Source: an uncultured Acetatifactor sp.
GTDB lineage: Bacteria; Bacillota; Clostridia; Lachnospirales; Lachnospiraceae
Length of the DNA stretch: 64,000 nucleotides
Direction of reading: 5' to 3'
Assembly (NCBI GenBank): GCA_944384205.1
Contig: CALWSL010000016.1
Span: forward strand, 1 to 64,000
The notes under the pieces are model-generated. The model ran no database searches. It saw only the letters and a list, made by a program, of their open reading frames with translations, and was not told where the DNA came from. Positions 640 to 11,983 of this stretch are shown piece after piece. A program made the position numbers and the translations under genes. How positions within the stretch are numbered: the stretch's first letter is position 1; each line of letters opens with the position of its first letter.

Positions 640-1788
640 ATGAAACAGGTACATTTAAGAGTTGATGATGAGTTATATAATGAATTAAATGCGTATTCTG
701 TAATGACGGAGCAGACAATGCAGGATTGTGTGAGAGAAGCGGTTGCATATTATGTTACTGATATGAGAAAAAAACAGCGGGAAGTGAAAGACCGTCAGTT
801 TACTTTTATTGATTTGTTTGCCGGAATAGGCGGAATGAGAATTGCTTTTGAGAGAGCCGGCGGGCATTGCGTTTATTCTAATGAGTGGAATAAATACAGT
901 CAGCAGACATATTTTGCTAATTTTGGCGAGCAGCCAGAGGGAGACATTACACAGGTGCCAGCTTCGTCTATCCCGGATCATGATATTCTGGTAGCCGGAT
1001 TTCCCTGTCAGCCATTTTCCATTGCAGGTGTTTCAAAAAAGAACAGCCTTGGACGGGCAACAGGATTTGAGGATAAGACACAGGGGACACTCTTTTTTGA
1101 TGTTTGCAGGATATTAAAAGAAAAAAGGCCAAAAGCATTTATGCTGGAGAACGTAAAAAATCTGTGCAGTCATGATAAGGGCAGAACCTTTAAAATAATA
1201 TTAGAGTCTCTGGATGAACTGGATTACAGTGTATTCTATGCAGTTCTGGATGGACAGAACTATGTACCACAACACAGAGAACGAATCATTATTGTAGGAT
1301 TTGACCGCAAAAAGTATGGAAAGAATATAGAGTTTGATTTCAAGCTGACACCTGAATATCCAAAACCTGTTATGCGGGATATTCTGGAAAAAAATGTTGA
1401 CGAAAAATACACACTATCCGATAAACTCTGGACATATCTTCAAAATTATGCAGCAAAACATAAAGCGGCAGGTAATGGATTTGGATATGGCATTGCTCCA
1501 TTGGATGGCATATCAAGAACAATCAGTGCGAGATATTACAAGGATGGTTCGGAGATACTGATTGAGCAGAAAGGGAAAAATCCACGGCGGCTGACTCCAC
1601 GTGAATGTGCAAGATTGCAGGGATTTCCTGATGATTTCAAAATCCCGGTATCTGATACACAGGCGTATAAGCAATTTGGAAATTCTGTTGTGGTGCCATT
1701 GATGGAAGATGTGGCGAAACTGATAGTAAAGAAACTGGAAGATATGGACGAAACAGAGGGAAAAGAGTTACAGAGGATGGTGATTTAG
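640..1788 (+). CDS. EcoRII/Dcm-type DNA cytosine-5 methyltransferase with RHH-like N-terminus
   Basis: This 382-residue C5-cytosine methylase should protect host DNA, with CCWGG as predicted target because the next gene is an EcoRII nuclease. Ordered C5-MTase motifs are visible: DLFAGIGG (about 58-65), catalytic GFPCQPFS with Cys123, ENVKN with Glu170, [10 protein letters not shown], a motif IX region with [10 protein letters not shown], and QFGNSVVVP near the end. The first about 45 residues ([15 protein letters not shown] and following helices) look like a ribbon-helix-helix DNA-binding unit, not part of the catalytic core. N-terminal DNA-binding extensions of methylases such as M.SsoII act as repressors of their own operons, so autoregulation is inferred. 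Its stop is followed directly by the nuclease start, so the two are translationally coupled. Confidence 0.93.
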
Positions 1789-2964
1789 ATGTCTACAGGA
1801 TATGCGGGACAGGCGATAAAATCTGTTCTTAACAGTGAAAATGGATTTTGTAAATTTCTTTCTGCAAATGACACAGGAGCAACGGGTGGTCACCAGTCTG
1901 GTATTTTGATTTCAAAATCGGCTGTAGATATGATGTTCAGCAGACAGGAACTCGAACAGGATACAATTCCCAAAAGAACGGTAAAAATCAGATGGCAGGA
2001 TGATTTTGAGACAGAAAGTTGTTTTACATACTATGAGAGTAAAAATGAATTAAGGATTACCCGTTTTGGAAGAGGTTTTCCATTTTTGAAACCAGAACAA
2101 ACGGGCGCATTATTTGTATTTACACAACAGACGGATGATGATTACAGTGGATACTTTCTGGAAACAGATGAGGAAATAGAAGAGTTTCTTGATACATTTG
2201 GTATCAGCCCTACAGAGACGAATGGTCTTATTGATACAGGAAAGATTTCGTCAGAAACGCAGGAAAAGTTGGCAATACAGGAGTTTATCAGTGGCCTTGA
2301 TGTAGATTTCCCGACATCTGATGTGATGTCTGCAGCGGCCAGAACGATTGAAGAGAAAGCATATGATCATGTAGAATATATTCTCACCAATCCTGATGAA
2401 AAAATTATCAGTTGGACGAATATGGAATATACTCTTTTCAGAGCGTTGGAATATGCAAGATATGGCGCTATAATTACAAAAGGATTTCAGTCGGTGGATG
2501 AATTTGTAAGAGTTGCAAATGTAGTGCTGAATCGCAGAAAAAGTCGCGCTGGTAAAAGCCTTGAACATCATTTGTCAGCGATATTTGATGGCAATGGTAT
2601 AGAGTATTCATCTCAGGCTGTTACAGAGGGTAATAAAAAGCCGGATTTTCTGTTTCCCTCTCAGGAGGCATACCATGATTATAATTTTTCAACGGATAAT
2701 ATCATTTCTCTGGCGGCAAAAACAACCTGCAAGGACAGGTGGAGGCAGGTGTTAAACGAAGCGGATCGGCTGAGGGATAAACCAAAGTATCTCTGTACAC
2801 TTCAGCAGGGAATATCCGGGGCTCAGATGGATGAAATGCAGGCTGAAAATGTCATATTGGTTGTACCGAAACCCTACATAGTGACATATCCTAAAGACCG
2901 CAGAGACAGGATATGGACATTAGCCCGGTTTGTGCAATATGTAAAAATGATTGAGGGCAAATAA
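1789..2964 (+). CDS. ecoRIIR: EcoRII-type type II restriction endonuclease
   Basis: Full-length homologue of EcoRII (391 residues against about 404), a type IIE enzyme that cuts before CCWGG and needs a second effector site. The N-terminal effector domain shows FLSANDTGATGGHQSG (23-38) and RITRFGRGFPF (89-99), both hallmarks of EcoRII. The C-terminal nuclease domain carries NRRKSRAGKSLE (248-259) and the PD-(D/E)xK core: KKPDFLFP with Asp286, then KTTCKDRW with Lys311 and Lys315, matching D299, K324 and K328 of EcoRII. All catalytic residues are intact, so the enzyme is probably active. It starts at the ATG right after the methylase stop and is followed after one base by vsr. Confidence 0.95.
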   Translation: MSTGYAGQAIKSVLNSENGFCKFLSANDTGATGGHQSGILISKSAVDMMFSRQELEQDTIPKRTVKIRWQDDFETESCFTYYESKNELRITRFGRGFPFLKPEQTGALFVFTQQTDDDYSGYFLETDEEIEEFLDTFGISPTETNGLIDTGKISSETQEKLAIQEFISGLDVDFPTSDVMSAAARTIEEKAYDHVEYILTNPDEKIISWTNMEYTLFRALEYARYGAIITKGFQSVDEFVRVANVVLNRRKSRAGKSLEHHLSAIFDGNGIEYSSQAVTEGNKKPDFLFPSQEAYHDYNFSTDNIISLAAKTTCKDRWRQVLNEADRLRDKPKYLCTLQQGISGAQMDEMQAENVILVVPKPYIVTYPKDRRDRIWTLARFVQYVKMIEGK

Positions 2965-2965
2965 G

Positions 2966-3415
2966 ATGGATATAAAAAGCCCGGAAGAACGAAGCAGGAA
3001 TATGGCGGCTATCCGTTCAAAGGATACCAGGCCGGAGATATATTTCAGAAAATTACTTTTTGCACATGGATACAGATATAGTCTTAATTCCAAAAAGATA
3101 CCCGGACACCCGGATATTTATCTTCGTAAGTATAATACTGCGATTTTTATTCACGGATGTTTCTGGCACAGACATTCCGGTTGTAAGTATGCGTATATGC
3201 CGAAATCAAGAGTGGAATTCTGGCAGAAAAAATTTGAAGCGAATGTAAAAAGAGATTATATTGTCAGGATGGAATTGCAGGATAAGGGGATTAAGTGCCT
3301 GATTGTGTGGGAGTGTACGGTTAAAAGGATGAAAAGAAATCAGGAGGATTGCGAAAAATACTTGAAAATAGCAGAAAGATTTTTAGAAAGCAATCAGGCA
3401 TTGTTAGAAATCTAA
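2966..3415 (+). CDS. vsr: Very short patch repair endonuclease Vsr
   Basis: Vsr nicks 5' of the T in T:G mismatches arising from deamination of 5-methylcytosine in CCWGG sites, limiting the mutagenic cost of the neighbouring methylase. The 149-residue product shows RNMAAIRSKDTRPE (11-24), the nuclease core PGHPDIYL with Asp50 (Asp51 in E. coli Vsr), and FIHGCFWHRHSGC with histidines and zinc-ligand cysteines in place. ATG 2966 is preferred over an in-frame TTG at 2951, because a GAGGG ribosome site (2953-2957) sits 8 bases upstream and it follows the nuclease stop by one base. The placement next to a Dcm-like methylase mirrors dcm-vsr of E. coli. Confidence 0.95.
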   Translation: MDIKSPEERSRNMAAIRSKDTRPEIYFRKLLFAHGYRYSLNSKKIPGHPDIYLRKYNTAIFIHGCFWHRHSGCKYAYMPKSRVEFWQKKFEANVKRDYIVRMELQDKGIKCLIVWECTVKRMKRNQEDCEKYLKIAERFLESNQALLEI

Positions 3416-3478
3416 TATACTGTGTTGAATGAAAGAATATTTAATGATTTTCGCAAATAGCAAATGAGGAGGGAATTA

Positions 3479-5602
3479 ATGTATCAGATTAAAATAGAAA
3501 ATTGTAATAATATTGCGGAGGGAGAATTAACTATTGAGGAGGGGAAACTTAATATCCTTTATGGGATAAATGGTACTGGAAAAACAACGATTGCAAAAGC
3601 AATAGAGTTTTCAAAGGAACCACAAAAAATAGAAGAATTGCAGTCTTTTTTTACAGAGAATCCGGCATCTGTTTCAATCAGTCCGGAGGTTGGAAAGATA
3701 TTGGTGTTTAATGAAGATTTCGTCAGAGATATTGTTTTTAAAGAAGATGAAGTAATACAGAATTCATTTGAAGTGTTTTTGAAAACACCTAATTATTCCC
3801 AAAAAAAGGCACAGCTTGATCAACATCTTCAATCCTTACATAATATTATGAAACAAGATGAAGAGATACAAGAGTTGCAAAGATTATTAGATCAGATTGC
3901 AGGCAAATTCAAACGTAATGCTAATGGAAAACTTAGTAAAACAGGTGTATATAAAAGCGTGTTGTCTAAAAGTAATTTGTATAATATACCAGAAGAACTG
4001 GATAGTTACAGACCTTTTATTACAAATACAGAAATCAATATTCCTTGGATAGATTGGAAGTCTAAAGGAGATGCGTTTGATATTGGAGATGGCTGTCCAT
4101 ATTGTTCAGAAACATTAAACAGGTCTGTACATAATCAGAGGAAAGAGGTATTTAAAAAAACTTATAAAAAGGCTGATTCGCAAAATCTCAAGGATTTGTT
4201 AGATTTGCTTGAAAATTTGAGGGTCTATGTTAAACCTGAGAAGTATGATGAATTGGTGTCTTATGTAAAAACAGATGTTCCGGAAGATATTATATCGGCT
4301 ATTCTTGAAAAATTATTATTAGAATTGGACGTAATGCTGAAACGGTTTGCGGCTATTGCTGAGTTTGGAAACAGGAGAATTGTACTCGCAGATATATCTA
4401 AACTTGACCAGCAGATTAATGAGATTGAAATTCCGAAAAGCTTCTTTGAGATTTTTGGCGGAGAAAAAATTGAAAATGTTATTGAACGAATAAATGATCA
4501 GGTGCTTGAATTGCGTTCGGAAGCAGCAGTATTAAAAAGAGAAATGGGTGCATTGAAAGGCGTAATGCAAGCAACTATACAAGCATCACAAACGGATATT
4601 AATGAGTTCTTAAAAACGGCGGGCATAAACTACGAATTAGTGATACTTGCCGAAGATGAAACTAACAGTCGTACAATATTAAAACAATGTTTTAGCGAAG
4701 AAAGAACAGATGTGACAAAGATACGAGATCATTTAAGCTGGGGAGAGAAAAATGCTTTTGCATTAATCCTATTTATGTATTATGCTGTTATGCAAAATCC
4801 GGATTTAATCATACTGGATGATCCAATCTCATCGTTTGACACTAATAAAAAGTATGCTATTCTCCATAGGATGTTTAAGAATATTGGAAAACGGGATGTT
4901 TCTTTGGAGGGAAAAACAGTTTTGCTTTTAACACATGACTTTGAACCTATTACGGATTTTATCGTAGTAGGAAAATTAGGCGAAGAAAAGGCACAAGCTT
5001 CTTTTATTTGTAATGAACATGGAAGTGTTAAAGCGCACAAGATAGATCCAAATTCTGATGTGAAACTTATTACAATAGAGTGTAGTGAGATTGCAAAAAA
5101 TACAGATATAAATATAGTTAGCCGTGTGGCTTTTTTAAGAAAGTTAAGTGAATTAAATGGAAGGAATGGAGATTGGGATTTGGTGTATGAAATTTTATCT
5201 TGTCTCATTCATGCAAATGAAATAAAGAGAAAGTTGGGGAATAACACATATATTGACATTGATCCGGAAGATATTGCTATTGGAGTATCTAAGATTAAGG
5301 AGTATATTCCGGATTTTGATTATGATGAACTTAAAAATAATATCTATACCAAAGAAGGTATTAAAAATTTATATGACACTGAAACTAATGCGTACTTAAA
5401 AGTGCAGTTATTTAGAGAAATGAACGAAATATTAACTCACAATGAGGTTAGAATTACGCAAATGGATGGTGCTTGGTATAAATTTATAGACGAAACGTAT
5501 CATATTGAAAATGATTATCTGCATTTTTTGGATATTATTAAATTTAACATTGTTCCGAGTTATATAGTTGACAATGTGGATAAAATTATTTCAGAAATAT
5601 GA
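3479..5602 (+). CDS. RloC/PrrC-like AAA (AAA_13-type) ATPase with CxxC hook
   Basis: A 707-residue ABC/SMC-like ATPase. Walker A GINGTGKTT lies at 29-37, a CPYC motif at 206-209 sits between two helical stretches like a Rad50 zinc hook, the ABC signature LSWGEKNAF is near 418, Walker B LIILDDPISSFD near 442, and an LTHDFE H-loop follows. This layout is shared by RloC and PrrC-type anticodon nucleases and related phage-exclusion ATPases that guard restriction systems. The C-terminal 200 residues should hold the effector, but I cannot assign the nuclease residues of PrrC there with confidence. ATG 3479 is chosen over ATG 3464 because AGGAGGG (3467-3473) precedes it. It lies about 60 bases after vsr and 17 bases before the EcoRII-N-like gene. 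Confidence 0.8.
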   Translation: MYQIKIENCNNIAEGELTIEEGKLNILYGINGTGKTTIAKAIEFSKEPQKIEELQSFFTENPASVSISPEVGKILVFNEDFVRDIVFKEDEVIQNSFEVFLKTPNYSQKKAQLDQHLQSLHNIMKQDEEIQELQRLLDQIAGKFKRNANGKLSKTGVYKSVLSKSNLYNIPEELDSYRPFITNTEINIPWIDWKSKGDAFDIGDGCPYCSETLNRSVHNQRKEVFKKTYKKADSQNLKDLLDLLENLRVYVKPEKYDELVSYVKTDVPEDIISAILEKLLLELDVMLKRFAAIAEFGNRRIVLADISKLDQQINEIEIPKSFFEIFGGEKIENVIERINDQVLELRSEAAVLKREMGALKGVMQATIQASQTDINEFLKTAGINYELVILAEDETNSRTILKQCFSEERTDVTKIRDHLSWGEKNAFALILFMYYAVMQNPDLIILDDPISSFDTNKKYAILHRMFKNIGKRDVSLEGKTVLLLTHDFEPITDFIVVGKLGEEKAQASFICNEHGSVKAHKIDPNSDVKLITIECSEIAKNTDINIVSRVAFLRKLSELNGRNGDWDLVYEILSCLIHANEIKRKLGNNTYIDIDPEDIAIGVSKIKEYIPDFDYDELKNNIYTKEGIKNLYDTETNAYLKVQLFREMNEILTHNEVRITQMDGAWYKFIDETYHIENDYLHFLDIIKFNIVPSYIVDNVDKIISEI

Positions 5603-5619
5603 TGTGGAGGTGACAATTA

Positions 5620-6075
5620 ATGATAGTAGGGTTGGCATTAAAAGTTCTGAGTGAAGTTGAAGTAAACTATATGGTAAGTAATCAACATGAATTTAATGGT
5701 GTTGCTTCATTAAAGAGGCTTTTTGGAACAAAGAAACAATTTTTTAATGCGAGATTTGTCTATATGAGTAATGCAGGAATTGAAAGTCAGGAGAATGGAT
5801 CGTTAACATGGTATGATGCAAGGGAAAATCATTCCTATAGAACGGAATATAGACTTTATTATGATTCTGCTATGCCACTGCAAATGGCAAACGCAGGAGA
5901 TACTTTGTTGCTCACAGTTGATGATATGGATTTTGTTAATATTTTTATTATAGAAAGAGGTACTCAACTGGTAAATTATTTGTCAAGCCAAATAAAAAAT
6001 GGAATGAATATGGATTATTATATTTCGACAAATAGTCGAGATACTCAAGTAATAGAAAATATTTTAAGATTGTAG
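5620..6075 (+). CDS. Stand-alone EcoRII N-terminal-like (B3-type) domain protein
   Basis: A 151-residue product, AT-rich, with ribosome site GTGGAGGTG 8 bases before the ATG. The stretch SNQHEFNGVASLKRLFG (about 21-37) followed by LTWYDARENHSYRTEYRLYY (62-81) and AGDTLLLTV resembles, to my recollection, the effector-binding N-terminal domain family of EcoRII, a pseudobarrel DNA-binding fold. No nuclease domain follows; the frame stops and downstream DNA has no PD-(D/E)xK sequence. It may be the sequence-recognition subunit of the preceding ATPase, or the remnant of a second EcoRII-like enzyme. The domain call is from memory of the family, not a search. Confidence 0.6.
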   Translation: MIVGLALKVLSEVEVNYMVSNQHEFNGVASLKRLFGTKKQFFNARFVYMSNAGIESQENGSLTWYDARENHSYRTEYRLYYDSAMPLQMANAGDTLLLTVDDMDFVNIFIIERGTQLVNYLSSQIKNGMNMDYYISTNSRDTQVIENILRL

Positions 6076-6629
6076 TATATTATTGAGGGAAAGAATTTGG
6101 CAACATTTTGGCAACAGAAAATCAGCAAGCCAGAATAAATGATGTAATTGAAGTAAAAAGCGGCGTGTATTTGCACAAAACCTAAACAAATAAAGTTAAT
6201 GATAACACAGAACACATCGAGTTCGAATAATTCCAATTTTAATACAGATTATTTAAAATGGCAGGTAGTCTATGGATTATCTGTCATTTGCCATATTATC
6301 CATAATGGTAAAGGAATAAAAAATTTTGTTATCATGATAGAAAAGCTGTTGTATTTGTTGATATCAAATATTTGAAAAAGAGTTACACAGTGAAATTGAG
6401 AAAATTGTAATTACGGATAAGCTGCAGGAAGCATGGTCATATCCTGAAATACAGCCCGGGTTGGTAAGGGAGTCAAAGGAGAGAAGTTTTTTATAATGGA
6501 AAAAATTTGGGAATTATTGTATAATTAAGTTCGGTGAACAGATTGCGGACACGTTTGGATGACGATAGATGTGGTATGGGAAAATGACGATAGACAAAAT
6601 AAATTTTAGTGGAGTGTGGAAAAAATAAT
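6076..6629. other. Gene-poor scar between defence operon and ogt
   Basis: About 550 AT-rich bases without an intact gene. It starts with a direct repeat, TTGGCAACATTTTGGCAACA (6097-6116). A short open frame at 6362-6496 encodes about 44 residues, including SEIEKIVITDKLQEAWSYPE. It has no start codon or ribosome site and looks like the tail of a decayed gene that I cannot identify. No promoter with good spacing was found for ogt. Confidence 0.4.
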
Positions 6630-7163
6630 ATGCAGTACATCAGTTATTACAGCTCGCCTATCGGCGACATCCTTTTAGCGGCAGATGATGTTGGCTTGAC
6701 AGGATTATGGTTCGAGGGGCAGAAATATTTTGCCCGCTGTCTGGATAAAGAGCATGAGGAAAAAGAAATCCCTCTGTTTGCAGAAGTGAAACAATGGCTT
6801 GCTGTTTATTTTTCGGGAAAAGAACCGGATTTTACGGTGCCGCTTCATTTTACAGGTACGGCTTTTCAGAATGAGGTATGGGAAATTCTCTGTTCGATTC
6901 CATACGGCAGAACTATGACCTACGGAGAGATTGCAAAGCAGATGGCAGCTAAAAGAGGGTTGACGCGTATGTCTGCCCAAGCCGTAGGAAGTGCGGTTGG
7001 ACACAATGAAATTTCCATTATAGTCCCATGTCATCGTGTTGTCGGAACAAACGGCAGTCTGACAGGCTATGCGGGAGGAATTGATAAGAAAGTAAAGCTG
7101 TTGCGTTTGGAAAAGGCGGATATGGAATCCTTTTTTGTTCCGAAGAAAGGAACCGCTTTATGA
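6630..7163 (+). CDS. ogt: Methylated-DNA--protein-cysteine methyltransferase
   Basis: A suicide repair enzyme that moves the methyl group from O6-methylguanine (or O4-methylthymine) to its own cysteine. The 177-residue product has the short N-terminal fold typical of Ogt, then FQNEVWEILCSIPYGRTMTY, the DNA-contacting AVGSAVGHNE segment, and the active site PCHRVVG with Cys134, followed by LTGYAGG. ATG 6630 is preferred over an in-frame GTG at 6609 because the protein begins there in the family pattern (YYSSPIGDILLA). It is a lone gene between mobile scars; there is no Ada/AraC partner visible nearby. Confidence 0.93.
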   Translation: MQYISYYSSPIGDILLAADDVGLTGLWFEGQKYFARCLDKEHEEKEIPLFAEVKQWLAVYFSGKEPDFTVPLHFTGTAFQNEVWEILCSIPYGRTMTYGEIAKQMAAKRGLTRMSAQAVGSAVGHNEISIIVPCHRVVGTNGSLTGYAGGIDKKVKLLRLEKADMESFFVPKKGTAL

Positions 7164-7234
7164 AACCGGCGGAATCAAGCATTAGCCGTTTCCCAATCCT
7201 GCAGCGGAAGCAGTTTCTTTTACCGAGATAGGCG

Positions 7235-7711
7235 GTGCAGATCATCAAGGACGGCGGCTATGCCACCAGCCTGACTTATGTGGAGAAGCTTTGTTCCGTC
7301 ATCGAGAGGTGGAACCTCACGCAGTACGATGTGAAGGAAGAAGTCGAATGGTACCGTGTTCGCAAGACCTGGGAGGATTCCAAGTCGCAGATCGGTGCAT
7401 TCAAGATTCTGGAGAATGCAAAGAAGTGTGCGGATGCCAATCCGGGATATAAGGTTTTTGATGCATCCGGAAAGGTGGTATATGCACCGGCTGCTTCAGC
7501 AGCGGATGTGCCTTTCCCTGTGAAGGTCAGTATCACGGATCTGAATATTCGGACGGGACCGGGGACAGACCATGCCAGGACAGGCAGGTTTACCGGCATC
7601 GGGGTATTCACCATCGTTGAGGTGAAGTCCGGCAAGGGCTCCACGGCGGGCTGGGGACGGCTCAAATCCGGTGCGGGCTGGATTTCGCTTGAGTATGCGG
7701 CACGGATTTAA
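7235..7711 (+). pseudogene. 3' remnant of a phage/ICE lysin (glucosaminidase end plus SH3 domain)
   Basis: The frame opens only after an in-frame stop at 7229-7231 and starts in the middle of a domain. Its first residues, KDGGYATSLTYVEKLCSVIE, match the end of a bacterial glucosaminidase/amidase lysin domain, followed by a linker and a bacterial SH3 domain (SITDLNIRTGPGTDHARTG and a GWGRLKSGAGWISL end). The catalytic half is missing, so this is a 5'-truncated endolysin gene at the edge of an inserted element. A GTG at 7235 could start a fragment, but no ribosome site supports it. Confidence 0.7.
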
Positions 7712-7712
7712 T

Positions 7713-7800
7713 TTATCAGATGTGGGAAGACTCCCGCCTCTGCAGGCGGCGAGTATAACAAACTTGTATCAGTGGCGGGAGTCAATCCCCCATCTGATAA
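7713..7800 (+). terminator. Long stem-loop after lysin remnant
   Basis: TTATCAGATG (7713-7722) pairs with CATCTGATAA (7791-7800), and GACTCCCGCC (7729-7738) pairs with GGCGGGAGTC (7774-7783). This is a large structured element directly behind the stop codon; there is no T-run, so it may be a transcript-stabilising or recombination-related structure instead of a terminator. Confidence 0.5.
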
Positions 7801-7868
7801 ACGCTCCGCGGGGATGCGCAGGGATTCGGTGAGGAAGATGTCGGCTGAAGCTGACCCGAATCCCGCGC

Positions 7869-7890
7869 CAAGACCCGCGAGCGGGTCTTG
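7869..7890. repeat. Perfect 10-bp inverted repeat
   Basis: CAAGACCCGC (7869-7878) and GCGGGTCTTG (7881-7890) are perfect complements around a two-base centre. The site lies between the lysin remnant and the recombinase module; it could be a protein-binding dyad or a hairpin. Confidence 0.6.
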
Positions 7891-7895
7891 AAATT

Positions 7896-7942
7896 GGCGG
7901 CATTGTTCTTCGGAGCAGTGCCGCCTTATTTTTGTTTTTTTT
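7896..7942 (+). terminator. Intrinsic terminator before recombinase module
   Basis: GGCGGCATTG (7896-7905) pairs with CAGTGCCGCC (7916-7925, one G-U pair) and is followed by a long T-rich tract. It separates the lysin remnant from the recombinase module. Confidence 0.75.
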
Positions 7943-8000
7943 CTTCTGTAAATTCGGTCTGTTTCTGGGCGTAGGAAGGTGAACGATTGGAGGCGGCGCT

Positions 8001-8408
8001 ATGAATACAGACCAGAAAACCAGAATCACCAGACTGCGCAGCGAAGGCGCAAGCTATAACCAGATTGCCCAGGAACTTGGCATCTCCAAAAATACAGTCT
8101 CTACCTTCTGCCGCAGAAACGGCCTGACGGGGGATACTGCAGAATCGGCTCCTTCCACAGTCACCACACATACCTGTAAAAACTGTGGGAAAGAGATTAT
8201 CCAGTATCCCGGACGCAAGGAGAAGAAGTTCTGCTCGGATGCCTGCAGGAACAAATGGTGGAACGCCCACTTGTCTGAGGTAAAGCGCAGGGCGATGTAT
8301 CTGTATACCTGCCCATCCTGTGGGAAGACGTTTTATGCCTACGGCAACCGGAACCGCAAGTACTGCTCCCACGCCTGCTATATCGCAGGCAGATTCGGAG
8401 GTGCGTGA
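8001..8408 (+). CDS. Small HTH protein with two cysteine-rich zinc-binding segments
   Basis: A 135-residue protein. Residues 1-40 form a sigma-like or resolvase-like helix-turn-helix (RLRSEGASYNQIAQELGISK). Two zinc-type Cys clusters follow: CKNCGKE with FCSDAC, and CPSCGKT with YCSHAC. Ribosome site TTGGAGGCG lies just upstream. Similar small genes sit in front of tandem serine recombinases in Clostridia elements, so it is likely a recombination directionality or regulatory factor, but the exact role is unknown. The stop overlaps the next start (TGATG). Confidence 0.7.
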   Translation: MNTDQKTRITRLRSEGASYNQIAQELGISKNTVSTFCRRNGLTGDTAESAPSTVTTHTCKNCGKEIIQYPGRKEKKFCSDACRNKWWNAHLSEVKRRAMYLYTCPSCGKTFYAYGNRNRKYCSHACYIAGRFGGA

Positions 8409-8659
8409 TGAGAATGACAGTCGGGGAATTTGAACGGGAGAAGCAGTACCAGACCGTGATGCATTTCGTGAGAAAACTCCTCGAAGAAGGGCTGATCTCC
8501 AAGGAGGAATACTGTCAGATTGATACAAGAAATCTGGAAAAATGGGAGCCGAAAACCGGCAGTTTACTTAGCGGAAAGTTCTTGATATATGCGGAAAACA
8601 GAGCGAACATGTCACATGGAAAGGAGGCATGTGCGTATGAGAAAGATAACAAGAATTGA
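8408..8659 (+). CDS. SHOCT-like small protein of recombinase module
   Basis: An 83-residue product whose central part, KLLEEGLISKEEYCQI, follows the SHOCT pattern (short helix, then G-I/L-I-S-x-E-E-Y). The gene overlaps its upstream neighbour by one base and runs 23 bases into the first recombinase gene, so three or four proteins are made from one message. The role is unknown; SHOCT segments are thought to mediate protein contacts. GTG 8405 or ATG 8414 are alternative starts. Confidence 0.6.
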   Translation: MRMTVGEFEREKQYQTVMHFVRKLLEEGLISKEEYCQIDTRNLEKWEPKTGSLLSGKFLIYAENRANMSHGKEACAYEKDNKN

Positions 8660-10424
8660 GCCGACAGCTCCCGTGGTAAAACAGAAAAGACGTGTGGCGG
8701 CATATGCCAGGGTGTCGATGGATACGGAGCGTCTCCAGCATTCCCTCTCCGCTCAGATCAGCTACTATAACGATAAGATTCAGAAGAATCCGGAGTGGCT
8801 CTTTGCGGGCGTATATGCGGACAACGGAATCTCCGGCACCGGGACGGCAAAGCGGGAGGAATTCAACAGGCTGATTGCTGACTGCGAGGCAGGAAAGATT
8901 GATCTGGTGCTGACCAAGTCCATCAGCCGGTTTGCCAGGAATACGGTAGACCTTCTGGAGACGGTCCGCCATCTGAAGGAGATCGGTGTGGAGGTCTGGT
9001 TTGAGCGGGAAAACATCCGCTCTTTTGACGGGGATGGCGAGCTGCTGCTTTCCATCCTCGCTTCATTTGCCCAGGAAGAAAGCCGATCCATTTCAGAAAA
9101 CTGCAAGTGGGGAATCCGGAAGCGTTTTGAAAACGGAATTCCCAACGGGCATTTCAGGATTTACGGATACCGCTGGGAGGGAGATGAGCTGCTCATTGTG
9201 CCGGAGGAAGCGGCTGTGGTGCGGCGTATATTCCGGAACTTCCTCGATGGGAAGTCCCGGCTTGAGACGGAGCGGGAGTTTGCCGAAGAAGGGATCACCA
9301 CAAGGGACGGGTGCCGATGGGTGGATTCCAACATCAAGAAGGTGCTCACGAACTGCACATATACAGGAGACCTTCTCCTGCAGAAGGAGTACATTTCCGA
9401 TCCCATCCATAAAAAACGCAGGCAGAACCGAGGGGAGCTTCCCCAGTATTTTGTGCCGGAACACCATGAGGCCATCATTGACCGGGAGACCTTTCGGTAT
9501 GTGCAGGAAGAAATGGAACGGCGTAAGGAACTGGGAGCGCTGGCGAACAAGAGCCTGAATACCTGCTGTTTTACCGGCAGGATGAAATGTCCCCACTGCG
9601 GCTGCAGCTACATGCACAACCGGCGTACAAAGAACGGCAGTTATCAGGAGTACTGGACCTGCGGCAGCAGGAAGAAAAAGAAGGTGGGTGATGGATGTCC
9701 GGTAAGCGGCTCCATCAGCCAGAAGGCTCTGGAGAAGGCATGCATGGAAGTCCTCGGATTGGAGGGCTTTAACGAGGAGGCGTTTCTTGCAGTCGTTGAC
9801 CACATCGAGGTGCCGGAAAGCTACACGCTGGACTTCTTCCTAAAAGACGGGACAGTGGTTCGCAAGGCTGCGCCAAACACCGGGCATCAGGACTGCTGGA
9901 CGCCGGAATACAAGGCGAAAGCTTCCGCATACCGTCGGGAGCATGCGGCGATGGGAAAGAAAGGCGCATCCTGTTTTACATCCAAAATCAAATGCGCGGA
10001 GTGCGGCTGCAACTTCCGGGGACATACACAACGAAGTGTATCTTCAGAAAGCGGAAGAATGAAGCACTGGCGGTGCAGCAGCGGCTCTGCCGTCTGCGGC
10101 ACTCCCGGCCTGCGTGACGACCTTCTTCGGAAGCTCGCCGCAGAAGTGATGGGAACGGAGGTATTTGACGAAGAACGATTCCTGGAGCAGGTTGACCGGA
10201 TTGTCGTAAATAAGGAAAAGGAACTGACTTTTGTGTTTTGCGATGGCCGGGAAGTGACAAGGGCGTGGGAATACAAGAGGCAGATGCCGCCCTGGTCGAA
10301 AGAGCGCAGAGCTTCTTTTGCAAGAAAGCCAAGGAGAAGTTTTACAGAAGAAGAGCGCAAAGCTGCCAGTGAGAGGATGAAAAAGCTGAGGAAGGAGCGT
10401 GGAAGCGAATGGCGAAAAAGGTAA
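8637..10424 (+). CDS. Large serine recombinase 1, with duplicated zinc-ribbon half
   Basis: A 595-residue member of the large serine recombinases that integrate and excise mobile elements. The resolvase domain shows AAYARVSMD with the nucleophilic Ser, GISGTGTAKREEFNRL, and KSISRFARNTVD; a recombinase domain follows from about residue 165. The C-terminal half is unusual: the zinc ribbon (CPHCGCSY...) and its following strand region repeat a second time (CAECGCNF... then an FVFCDGRE strand echoing FFLKDGT). No long coiled coil is evident. ATG 8637 is set by AAGGAGG 9 bases upstream. It overlaps recombinase 2 by 16 bases; both are clearly richer in G+C than the R-M operon. Confidence 0.92.
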   Translation: MRKITRIEPTAPVVKQKRRVAAYARVSMDTERLQHSLSAQISYYNDKIQKNPEWLFAGVYADNGISGTGTAKREEFNRLIADCEAGKIDLVLTKSISRFARNTVDLLETVRHLKEIGVEVWFERENIRSFDGDGELLLSILASFAQEESRSISENCKWGIRKRFENGIPNGHFRIYGYRWEGDELLIVPEEAAVVRRIFRNFLDGKSRLETEREFAEEGITTRDGCRWVDSNIKKVLTNCTYTGDLLLQKEYISDPIHKKRRQNRGELPQYFVPEHHEAIIDRETFRYVQEEMERRKELGALANKSLNTCCFTGRMKCPHCGCSYMHNRRTKNGSYQEYWTCGSRKKKKVGDGCPVSGSISQKALEKACMEVLGLEGFNEEAFLAVVDHIEVPESYTLDFFLKDGTVVRKAAPNTGHQDCWTPEYKAKASAYRREHAAMGKKGASCFTSKIKCAECGCNFRGHTQRSVSSESGRMKHWRCSSGSAVCGTPGLRDDLLRKLAAEVMGTEVFDEERFLEQVDRIVVNKEKELTFVFCDGREVTRAWEYKRQMPPWSKERRASFARKPRRSFTEEERKAASERMKKLRKERGSEWRKR

Positions 10425-11983
10425 TGAAGATCCCGGCAACGGTCAGCCAGTTTACGGCATCTCCTATCGACAGCCGGAAAAAGAGAAAAGTCGCCGGATA
10501 TGCCCGTGTATCCACAGACCATGACGAGCAGCTGACCAGTTATGAGGCACAGCTGGATTATTACACCACCCTCATCAAAAGCCATGACGACTGGGAGTTT
10601 GCCGGGATGTATTCTGACGAAGGGGTGACCGGGACCAGCACCAAAAAAAGAGAGGGATTCCAGACAATGGTGGCCGATGCTCTGGCAGGGAAAATCGACC
10701 TAATCATCACCAAGAGCGTGAGCCGCTTTGCCAGAAATACGGTGGACAGCCTTTCCACCATCCGGGAACTGAAGGAGCACAACACAGAGGTCTATTTCGA
10801 GAAGGAAAACATCTGGACATTCGATTCCAAGGGAGAGCTGCTGATCACTATCATGTCCTCCCTGGCCCAGGAAGAAAGCCGCTCCATTTCGGAGAACGTC
10901 ACCTGGGGACACCGGAAGCGGATGGCGGACGGCAAGGTGGCGGTGGCCTACAGCCGGTTCATCGGCTACGATAAGGGGGAAGACGGCAGCATGGTGATCA
11001 ATGAGGAGGAGGCCAAGGTCATCCGGCTGATTTACGGAGAGTTCCTGACGGGGCTTTCCTACCACGCCATTGCCGACCGGCTGACGGCTCTTGGCATTCA
11101 AACGCCCGGAGGCAAAAGAAAATGGAGCCAGAGCACGGTAAAGAGCATCCTCCAGAATGAGAAATACAAGGGAGATGCCCTGCTGCAGAAAAGCTACACA
11201 CCGGATTTTTTAACCAAGAAGCAGGTCGTCAATAATGGCGAGGTTCCTCAATATTATGTGCAGGGAAGTCACGAGCCCATCATTGAGCCGGAAATTTTTG
11301 ACCGGGTGCAGGATATGATCAAGCAGCGGGCTGCCAAACGGGGATACAGCGGAGTGACGATTTTCTCTTCCAGGATTTACTGCGGAGAGTGCGGTGCGGC
11401 CTATGGCTCCAAGGTCTGGCACAGCACGGACAAATATCGGAGGGTGATCTGGCAGTGCAACGCCAAGTTCATAGAAAAGAAACACTGCAGCACTCCCCAC
11501 CTGACGGAGGAGGAGATCAAAGCCGCCTTTGTCCGGGCGGCAAATAAGCTGCTCACGGACAGAACGGTGGTGCTGAAGGAACTGCGGGAAATCCAGAAGA
11601 CTCTCACCGGTACCGATGAGCTGGAAGCAGAGCAGAAACAGCTGGCGGAGCAGATGAATGCGGATGCCGATGCGGTGCAGGAGCTGATTGCCCAGAATGC
11701 ACGGGTGGCGCAGGATCAGACCGAGTACAATCTCCGATACGATGCACTGGTTTCCCGCTTTGACAAGACAAAGGAACGGTACGAGCAGGTCACTGCAGAG
11801 ATCGCTATGAAGGGCGTCCGCAGGCGGGAGTTCGGGCGATTTATCAAGTCGGTGGAGAACCTGCCGGAGATGATCCACGAGTTTGACGAGGCACTCTGGG
11901 GCAGCCTGGTAGAAAAGGTGACGGTATACAGCAAGGACAAAATCGTGTTTACCATGACCAGCGGCATGGAGATCGGGGTCTGA
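10409..11983 (+). CDS. Large serine recombinase 2
   Basis: A 524-residue TndX/CcrA-like recombinase. The catalytic domain shows AGYARVSTDHDEQLTS with the nucleophilic Ser and KSVSRFARNTVD; then the recombinase domain (LTALGIQTPGGKRKWS), a zinc ribbon (CGECGAAY with a later C...C pair), and a coiled coil (about residues 400-470, ELEAEQKQLAEQ) as used for synapsis control. Translation overlaps the end of recombinase 1, so equal production and joint action are likely, as with paired recombinases such as CcrA and CcrB. A terminator follows within 15 bases. Confidence 0.93.
   Translation: MAKKVMKIPATVSQFTASPIDSRKKRKVAGYARVSTDHDEQLTSYEAQLDYYTTLIKSHDDWEFAGMYSDEGVTGTSTKKREGFQTMVADALAGKIDLIITKSVSRFARNTVDSLSTIRELKEHNTEVYFEKENIWTFDSKGELLITIMSSLAQEESRSISENVTWGHRKRMADGKVAVAYSRFIGYDKGEDGSMVINEEEAKVIRLIYGEFLTGLSYHAIADRLTALGIQTPGGKRKWSQSTVKSILQNEKYKGDALLQKSYTPDFLTKKQVVNNGEVPQYYVQGSHEPIIEPEIFDRVQDMIKQRAAKRGYSGVTIFSSRIYCGECGAAYGSKVWHSTDKYRRVIWQCNAKFIEKKHCSTPHLTEEEIKAAFVRAANKLLTDRTVVLKELREIQKTLTGTDELEAEQKQLAEQMNADADAVQELIAQNARVAQDQTEYNLRYDALVSRFDKTKERYEQVTAEIAMKGVRRREFGRFIKSVENLPEMIHEFDEALWGSLVEKVTVYSKDKIVFTMTSGMEIGV

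Follow-up and report, generated by a model that had tools for sequence, protein, structure and literature searches.

Restriction systems that carry B3-type domains have been described in several forms. In LlaJI the B3 domain is N-terminal and reads DNA (PMC7680126), R1 being the sole specificity subunit, and a shorter McrB occurs in the known three-gene cassettes LlaI and BsuM (PMC1459862). In R.CglI and R.NgoAVII the B3 domain binds its own site even when isolated, and these B3-nuclease R-proteins stimulate a separate partner ATPase, the N-protein (PMC4267653), a precedent for a reader that passes recognition of a site to a restriction partner. The N-domains of EcoRII are allosteric effectors (PMC4081073). 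VP1/RAV proteins, likewise of B3 type, were noted by Iyer et al. in 2008 in MORC/SWI2-SNF2 restriction operons (PMC2292703), and a 2021 report places EcoRII-C and Vsr domains close to two-component-like genes that are linked with paraMORC ATPases (PMC8011034). The locus considered here lies in a 64,000-nucleotide stretch of DNA from an uncultured Acetatifactor sp. (contig CALWSL010000016.1), hereafter the window, which is the first 64 kb of a 66-kb contig in a 3.15 Mb genome. It is an EcoRII-type operon whose last two genes encode a zinc-hook ABC ATPase and a 151-residue protein that resembles the EcoRII effector domain, here called the reader for its presumed role.

For hook ATPases the pertinent described systems are RloC and the candidate family that PADLOC labels PDC-S06. 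RloC proteins are 658-897 residues long and carry an Arg-X3-Glu-X36-52-His triad; a link to type I or III loci was reported for 8 of 73 (PMC2610378). ABC-HEPN proteins together with restriction systems have been proposed as a multi-pronged defence (PMC3710099).

The window operon is a run of five genes on the + strand, in the order C5-methylase, EcoRII, Vsr, zinc-hook ATPase and 151-residue protein, with intergenic gaps of 0, 1, 63 and 17 bases. The gene order, positions and 17-base spacing behind a full EcoRII operon agree with a preliminary description of this DNA. Sequence comparison leads us to favour, with modest confidence, a role for the 151-residue protein as a stand-alone reader of the operon's own site, most likely CCWGG; it would be part of the methylase-EcoRII-Vsr operon and not of the ATPase. 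ATPase and reader are then best read as two independent accessories on one operon. This reading draws support from family homology, stand-alone clades, purifying selection, the methylase companion, the varied nuclease machines nearby and an orthologous operon (L046) that lacks the ATPase. The reader would be a variation on a known theme, since B3-type proteins in restriction operons were already noted in 2008 (PMC2292703). Among the literature matches listed, from a search that left subscription journals and preprints mostly uncovered, none dealt with a stand-alone EcoRII-N-like protein in a LlaJI-type or EcoRII operon.

Homology of the 151-residue protein to the EcoRII effector domain

5620..6075, + strand: stand-alone EcoRII-N-like protein (presumed B3-type), 151 residues, without nuclease; assigned by homology, tree and profile comparison
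5677..5694, + strand: SNQHEF motif; Q, H and E in 42/42 aligned domains, N in 40/42
5839..5853, + strand: RTEYR loop (R74, E76, R78), in 42/42 domains; aligned with the TRNE(K/Y)R loop of EcoRII-N

The 151-residue protein had been described as an EcoRII effector domain without its nuclease, and comparison with EcoRII-C enzymes and with domain profiles upholds that description. Searches of Pfam and NCBIfam returned no match to it at E up to 1, so that the gathering score of PF09217, the effector-domain model, is not reached; no nuclease domain was found in it. Its only matches were weak ones in PADLOC (E 0.013) and PHROG (E 0.099), and a sequence search of the PDB gave nothing for the protein and chance-level matches for its family. 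Within the order, six of 392 genomes searched had a match, one of them the window's own. One of the five other relatives is a small protein; the other four are the N-termini of enzymes of 389-412 residues that end in EcoRII-C (PF09019, E 2e-58 to 3e-70). The match covers the N-terminal 98-125 residues of these full-length enzymes at 40-47% identity (E 3e-23 to 6e-28 for one genome), and their N-domains are likewise missed by PF09217.

Profile comparison provides the direct link. With hhalign, a family alignment of 42 domains (which omits L114 and L139, although both are among the stand-alone loci below) scored 93.1% against 12 EcoRII-N domains (E 3.3e-7, 115 columns), and the negative controls (Vsr, alkyltransferase, GNAT, ATPase) scored 0.2-1.1%. 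Twelve stand-alone members alone reached 91.4% over 65 columns. The link to EcoRII-N rests on the family, because the single 151-residue sequence reaches 17.7% only. A profile search had been put forward as the check that could overturn the assignment, and its outcome is divided: Pfam is silent, and the family-level comparison finds the similarity. Since the Pfam model remains unmatched, the protein is classed by sequence as EcoRII-N-like and not as a member of PF09217.

Residues R74, E76 and R78 align with the TRNEYR loop of EcoRII-N, whose counterpart in EcoRII we take to run from K92 to R98 and to contact DNA. The EcoRII of the window itself has ESKNELR in this loop, where 10 of the 12 EcoRII-N domains have [G/K]TR[N/D/S]E(Y/K)R instead. 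The reader thus shares with the EcoRII effector domain its profile-level homology, the R-X-E-X-R loop and a link to M.EcoRII-like methylases. It differs in lacking a catalytic domain, in escaping PF09217, in an extra tail carried by six Clostridia members and in the grouping of 11 of 14 members into two clades of stand-alone proteins.

The stand-alone family

A scan of a genome collection of 84,980 species found 237 relatives, the best 80 of which were kept, leaving 157 unseen; 14 loci from viral contigs were added. Several contigs end near the gene of interest, and loci judged by eye to be duplicates were pooled (L003/L008/L049, L004/L059, L005/L077, L006/L092, L007/L117). At 13 of the 94 loci the relative is a short open reading frame without a catalytic domain, which with the window makes 14 stand-alone loci. 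In a tree of 99 domains and 135 columns, whose bootstrap had not settled, seven stand-alone proteins from Bacillota, the window's included, form one clade (support 100/99) and four from Pseudomonadota or viral contigs a second (100/99); the remaining three (L086, L114, L139) are placed elsewhere. The stand-alone label requires 4 changes on this tree, against 13.4 in shuffles.

The stand-alone relatives are under purifying selection. Between L048 and L049 nonsynonymous divergence (dN) is 0.145 and synonymous divergence (dS) 0.861; between the readers of the window and L046 the proportions of nonsynonymous and synonymous differences are 0.26 and 0.776, with dS saturated. The tail beyond the domain is, by eye, common to the six Clostridia members. 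From its sequence the 151-residue protein does not appear to be a recent stump.

Genes beside stand-alone readers

The most constant companion is a methylase. A C5-methylase with an M.EcoRII-like presumed recognition region stands at 13 of the 14 stand-alone loci (27 to 43 identical residues of 52-53 aligned; 34/52 in the window), and the EcoO109I-type methylase of L044, used as a control, reached 9/41 in the same comparison. The compared region is presumably the target-recognition part of these enzymes. Across the whole SNQHEF family a C5-methylase motif occurs at 91 of 94 loci, the three without it being L062 (gene 353 bases from the contig end), L121 (4.7 kb) and L139 (20 kb). Vsr is found at 10 of the 14 stand-alone loci and is broken in L046.

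The nuclease machines vary. EcoRII-type enzymes accompany six of the 14 readers (window, L046, L056, L102, L114, L115), and LlaJI-like R1 and R2 accompany four (L047-L050). L125 and L132 have a GHKL/MORC-like protein (PADLOC MzaB in L125) with an SNF2 helicase and HNH, L086 has a DrmB cluster, and L114 has an additional MORC-like gene about 6 kb off. In the first 16 kb of the window, neither LlaJI/McrBC cassette genes (R1, R2) nor MORC or SNF2 were matched. The position of the reader among its neighbours varies as well, and it is the first of the restriction genes at L047 and L050.

The loci L125 and L132 fit the MORC/SWI2-SNF2 operons of Iyer et al., in which a B3-type protein occurs near SNF2 helicase, HNH, MORC, methylase and Vsr; the excerpt of that report mentions no complete EcoRII operons, LlaJI-type cassettes or hook ATPases (PMC2292703). 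The four LlaJI-like loci share with LlaJI a B3 reader joined to motor and nuclease, and differ in that the reader is a separate protein. The McrB N-termini at these loci showed no likeness to EcoRII-N (0.1% and 0.4% by hhalign, no positive control), unlike the B3 N-terminus of LlaJI, which suggests that the separate reader may supply recognition there.

Proposed role of the reader

In the mechanism that we infer, the R-X-E-X-R and SNQHEF residues of the reader would bind unmethylated CCWGG, and the reader would hand recognition of the site in trans to the local restriction machine. In LlaJI/McrBC-type cassettes it would be the specificity part, and in the window an extra effector-site sensor for EcoRII; such an effector in trans is plausible because the N-domains of EcoRII are allosteric effectors. 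The ATPase would be a separate accessory, an RloC-like hook protein that joins restriction systems of several kinds and probably serves as a back-up when restriction fails or DNA is broken.

Several points weigh against this assignment. The CCWGG preference is deduced from the neighbouring methylases, and a second reader may be redundant in the window because its EcoRII has an effector domain of its own. Keeping the best 80 of 237 relatives favours those close to the window. One stand-alone copy (L139) has neither methylase nor nuclease machine in a 20-kb stretch. The cluster at L132 holds a pair of stand-alone readers together with a PDC-S06 hook ATPase of another type (PDLC04893). Finally, ATPase and reader may have arrived together in the window, given the 17-base gap between them and their shared low G+C content (32.1% and 31.1%; methylase and EcoRII 40%), the reader of L046 standing at 42.8%.

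A broader proposal, which we hold tentatively, is that one portable CCWGG reader is a shared specificity subunit for split LlaJI/McrBC nucleases with an McrB that bears no B3 likeness, MORC/SNF2/HNH systems, a DISARM-like DrmB cluster, and EcoRII, and that in the window it may inform EcoRII and the hook ATPase alike. Should a reader act in trans to supply recognition, specificity would be a module common to unrelated nuclease machines (EcoRII, McrBC-like motors, MORC systems), which gives a testable model for restriction systems that swap engines but retain methylase and site. Some McrBC-type nucleases encoded next to methylases, an association that has been called surprising (PMC11090510), could find their sites in this way.

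The zinc-hook ATPase

3479..5602, + strand: zinc-hook ABC ATPase, 707 residues, PADLOC PDC-S06 candidate family; PDLC04889 683 bits, PF13166 E 5e-26
4094..4105, + strand: CPYC zinc-hook motif (C206, C209); both cysteines in 21/21 aligned ATPases, the window's included
5138..5152, + strand: R554-X3-E558, candidate effector residues; invariant in 21/21 aligned ATPases
5501..5503, + strand: H675 of the ETYHIEND motif, candidate effector residue; histidine in 20/20 readable ATPases

An alternative in-frame ATG at 3464 gives a reading of 712 residues, and PDLC04889 matches residues 7-711 of it, that is, at full length. Walker A, ABC signature, Walker B and the CPYC hook can all be read in the sequence. 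In the PDB the protein matched generic ABC ATP-binding domains.

The ATPase had been introduced as RloC/PrrC-like and hook-bearing. The hook itself stands, as does an R-X3-E motif in the C-terminal part; the spacing typical of RloC and the type I linkage of PrrC were not recognised. As in RloC, the ABC ATPase is split by a CXXC hook insert, with a coiled coil assumed. In the H578 column, about X16-20 after R-X3-E, histidine occurs in 16 of 21 and lysine in 5 of 21, and the invariant histidine lies at X116 after R-X3-E in the window. The window protein may work like RloC, judging by these motifs, but its identity as RloC or PrrC is not established.

That it is a true RloC-type anticodon nuclease silenced by a type II system is accordingly doubtful. 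The hook cysteines and R-X3-E are invariant, the protein falls within the RloC size range, and restriction genes adjoin the ATPase in 7 of 21 contexts. Set against these, the next mostly conserved histidine and the invariant one both lie outside the X36-52 interval of RloC, a spacing that the aligned ATPases do not keep; no conserved copy of the HEPN motif Rx4-6H was found in the ATPase; and its C-terminal part had no convincing Pfam match and only chance-level matches in the PDB.

Full-length relatives of the ATPase occur in three other genomes of the 392 in the order. A class-level search of 391 genomes gave, besides the window, one full-length, one nearly full-length and one fragmentary relative; a fragment with an internal stop (G755) was excluded from the ATPase count. 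The ATPase is present in four viral contigs and was not found in phage records. It matches 903 plasmid records, 771 of them with at least 80% cover, and the neighbourhoods of 12 of the 903 records, 11 of them distinct, were read.

The seven restriction-linked contexts, the window included among the 21 distinct ones, are of several kinds. The ATPase stands next to EcoRII in the window and in enterobacterial plasmids, next to EcoO109I at L044, next to a BsuBI/PstI-type system in Komagataeibacter, next to type III systems at L140 and L161 (two mutually similar loci) and next to an annotated methylase and DEAD helicase in Methylotuvimicrobium. No type I system was recognised at any of the seven. 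At L154 an annotated N-6 methylase stands 1.4 kb from the ATPase, and this was not counted as a restriction link. The presence of the ATPase beside type II as well as type III systems agrees with a general role in backing up restriction. Of 2137 plasmid records with a match to some part of the stretch ATPase-M.EcoRII-R.EcoRII, 87 contain at least 80% of it; these may represent one plasmid lineage, since the two records inspected share the same neighbours.

Hook ATPases also adjoin SbcC/SbcD-like gene pairs, annotated as such in L152 and L155 and recognised by eye in L142. A possible kinship of the plasmid ATPases with IbfA was discarded, IbfA being an ATPase plus TOPRIM (PMC12111858).

Association between ATPase and reader

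A dedicated pair of ATPase and EcoRII-N-like protein, as first proposed, finds no backing in the gene neighbourhoods. The operon at L046, from Lachnoclostridium UBA7215, is orthologous to that of the window (methylase 77%, EcoRII 66% and reader 60% identical), and no ATPase or remnant of one lies between its Vsr and reader genes, in a 3.9-kb contig of a genome that could hold an ATPase elsewhere. A window-type ATPase occurs at 1 of the 14 stand-alone loci, the window itself. Nor did the pair co-occur in other genomes of the order: of the 392, five besides the window's own have a relative of the reader and three besides it have a full-length ATPase, and no genome is in both sets. Hook ABC ATPases of other types are found at 2 of 94 loci, L132 and L081; at L081 a PDLC04895-type ATPase directly follows a full-length EcoRII-like enzyme.

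These counts also bear on the model of the preliminary description, in which the 151-residue protein would read a DNA site or methylation state and gate the hook ATPase, whose C-terminus would be the effector. We consider this model unlikely. It can call on the 17-base gap, on the low G+C content that the two genes share and that the L046 reader lacks, on the cluster at L132 and the gene order at L081, and on fusions of EcoRII-N to GHKL ATPase domains at L104, L096 and, below cut-off, L133. Speaking against it are the orthologous L046 operon without the ATPase, the single reader locus with a window-type ATPase and the ATPase relatives that adjoin restriction genes in the absence of any reader. 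The enrichment of hook ATPases at reader loci is not significant, with P 0.056 (at least 2 in 14 given 3 in 95), or 0.26 without the window.

A PHP-SMC ATPase after the reader of L008 was considered as a second ATPase partner and dropped; by eye, L047, L048 and L050 have no such neighbour.

A lower probability still attaches to a regulatory role, in which the 151-residue protein would be a control protein of operon transcription that senses methylation near the promoter. Plant B3 domains act as transcription factors, the transcription of LlaJI can be controlled through methylase sites in the promoter region (PMC11779793), and at L047 and L050 the reader gene precedes the other restriction genes. 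Its placement elsewhere is varied, however, and CCWGG occurs in just 2 of 14 upstream or intergenic stretches and in 0 of 2 at L046 (counts for CCWGG only, with no search for other sites).

It is very improbable that the protein is a relic, left as an N-terminal stump when a second EcoRII-like enzyme decayed: it does match the N-termini of full-length enzymes, but no catalytic-domain remnant was detected at E < 0.8 in window positions 5601-9000 or in L008 8501-9700, and the strongly supported stand-alone clades, purifying selection and common tail run counter to decay.

Restriction genes and surroundings of the window operon

640..1788, + strand: C5-cytosine methylase, Dcm/M.EcoRII-like; PF00145 E 7e-99
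1789..2964, + strand: EcoRII-type restriction endonuclease, 391 residues; PF09217 effector domain and PF09019 catalytic domain
2966..3415, + strand: Vsr mismatch endonuclease; PF03852 E 2e-29, TIGR00632 above cut-off

With a C5-methylase and a restriction enzyme that carries both PF09217 and PF09019, the genes at 640-3415 have the composition of a type IIE EcoRII system. A CCWGG at position 625 is the sole copy within the 211 bases 5' of the methylase and overlaps its likely ribosome-binding site; at L046 there is no CCWGG across 410 bases upstream.

To the right of the operon (7235-11983) are genes for a protein with a weak SH3-type match, a helix-turn-helix protein and two large serine recombinases; a module resembling the last three lies close to the ATPase in viral contigs L141 and L143. 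On the left, positions 4-432 weakly match (27%, E 2e-7) an open reading frame that lies 5' of the EcoO109I-ATPase locus L044 and looks relaxase-like by eye, and a mobilisable element may be present.

Other arrangements of EcoRII-N-like domains

EcoRII-N is fused to GHKL-type ATPase domains at L104:11245-13980 and L096:11249-14002, in both cases directly 3' of a full-length EcoRII-like enzyme; a fusion of the same kind, with its EcoRII-N match below the Pfam cut-off, is placed likewise at L133:7100-10513. At L080:11334-13340 EcoRII-N is fused to Mrr_N and GmrSD_N, again 3' of a full-length EcoRII-like enzyme. The C5-methylase at L086:11228-12700, whose C-terminal domain is weakly EcoRII-N-like (E 0.0013, below cut-off), adjoins the stand-alone reader, an HhH-GPD glycosylase and the DrmB gene. 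Stand-alone proteins of another type, akin to EcoRII-N proper, are found at L125:10537-10974, L132:10297-10782, L097:3023-3391 and L122:13693-14121; PF09217 scores above cut-off in those of L125, L097 and L122, and those of L125 and L132 adjoin a SNQHEF-type reader.

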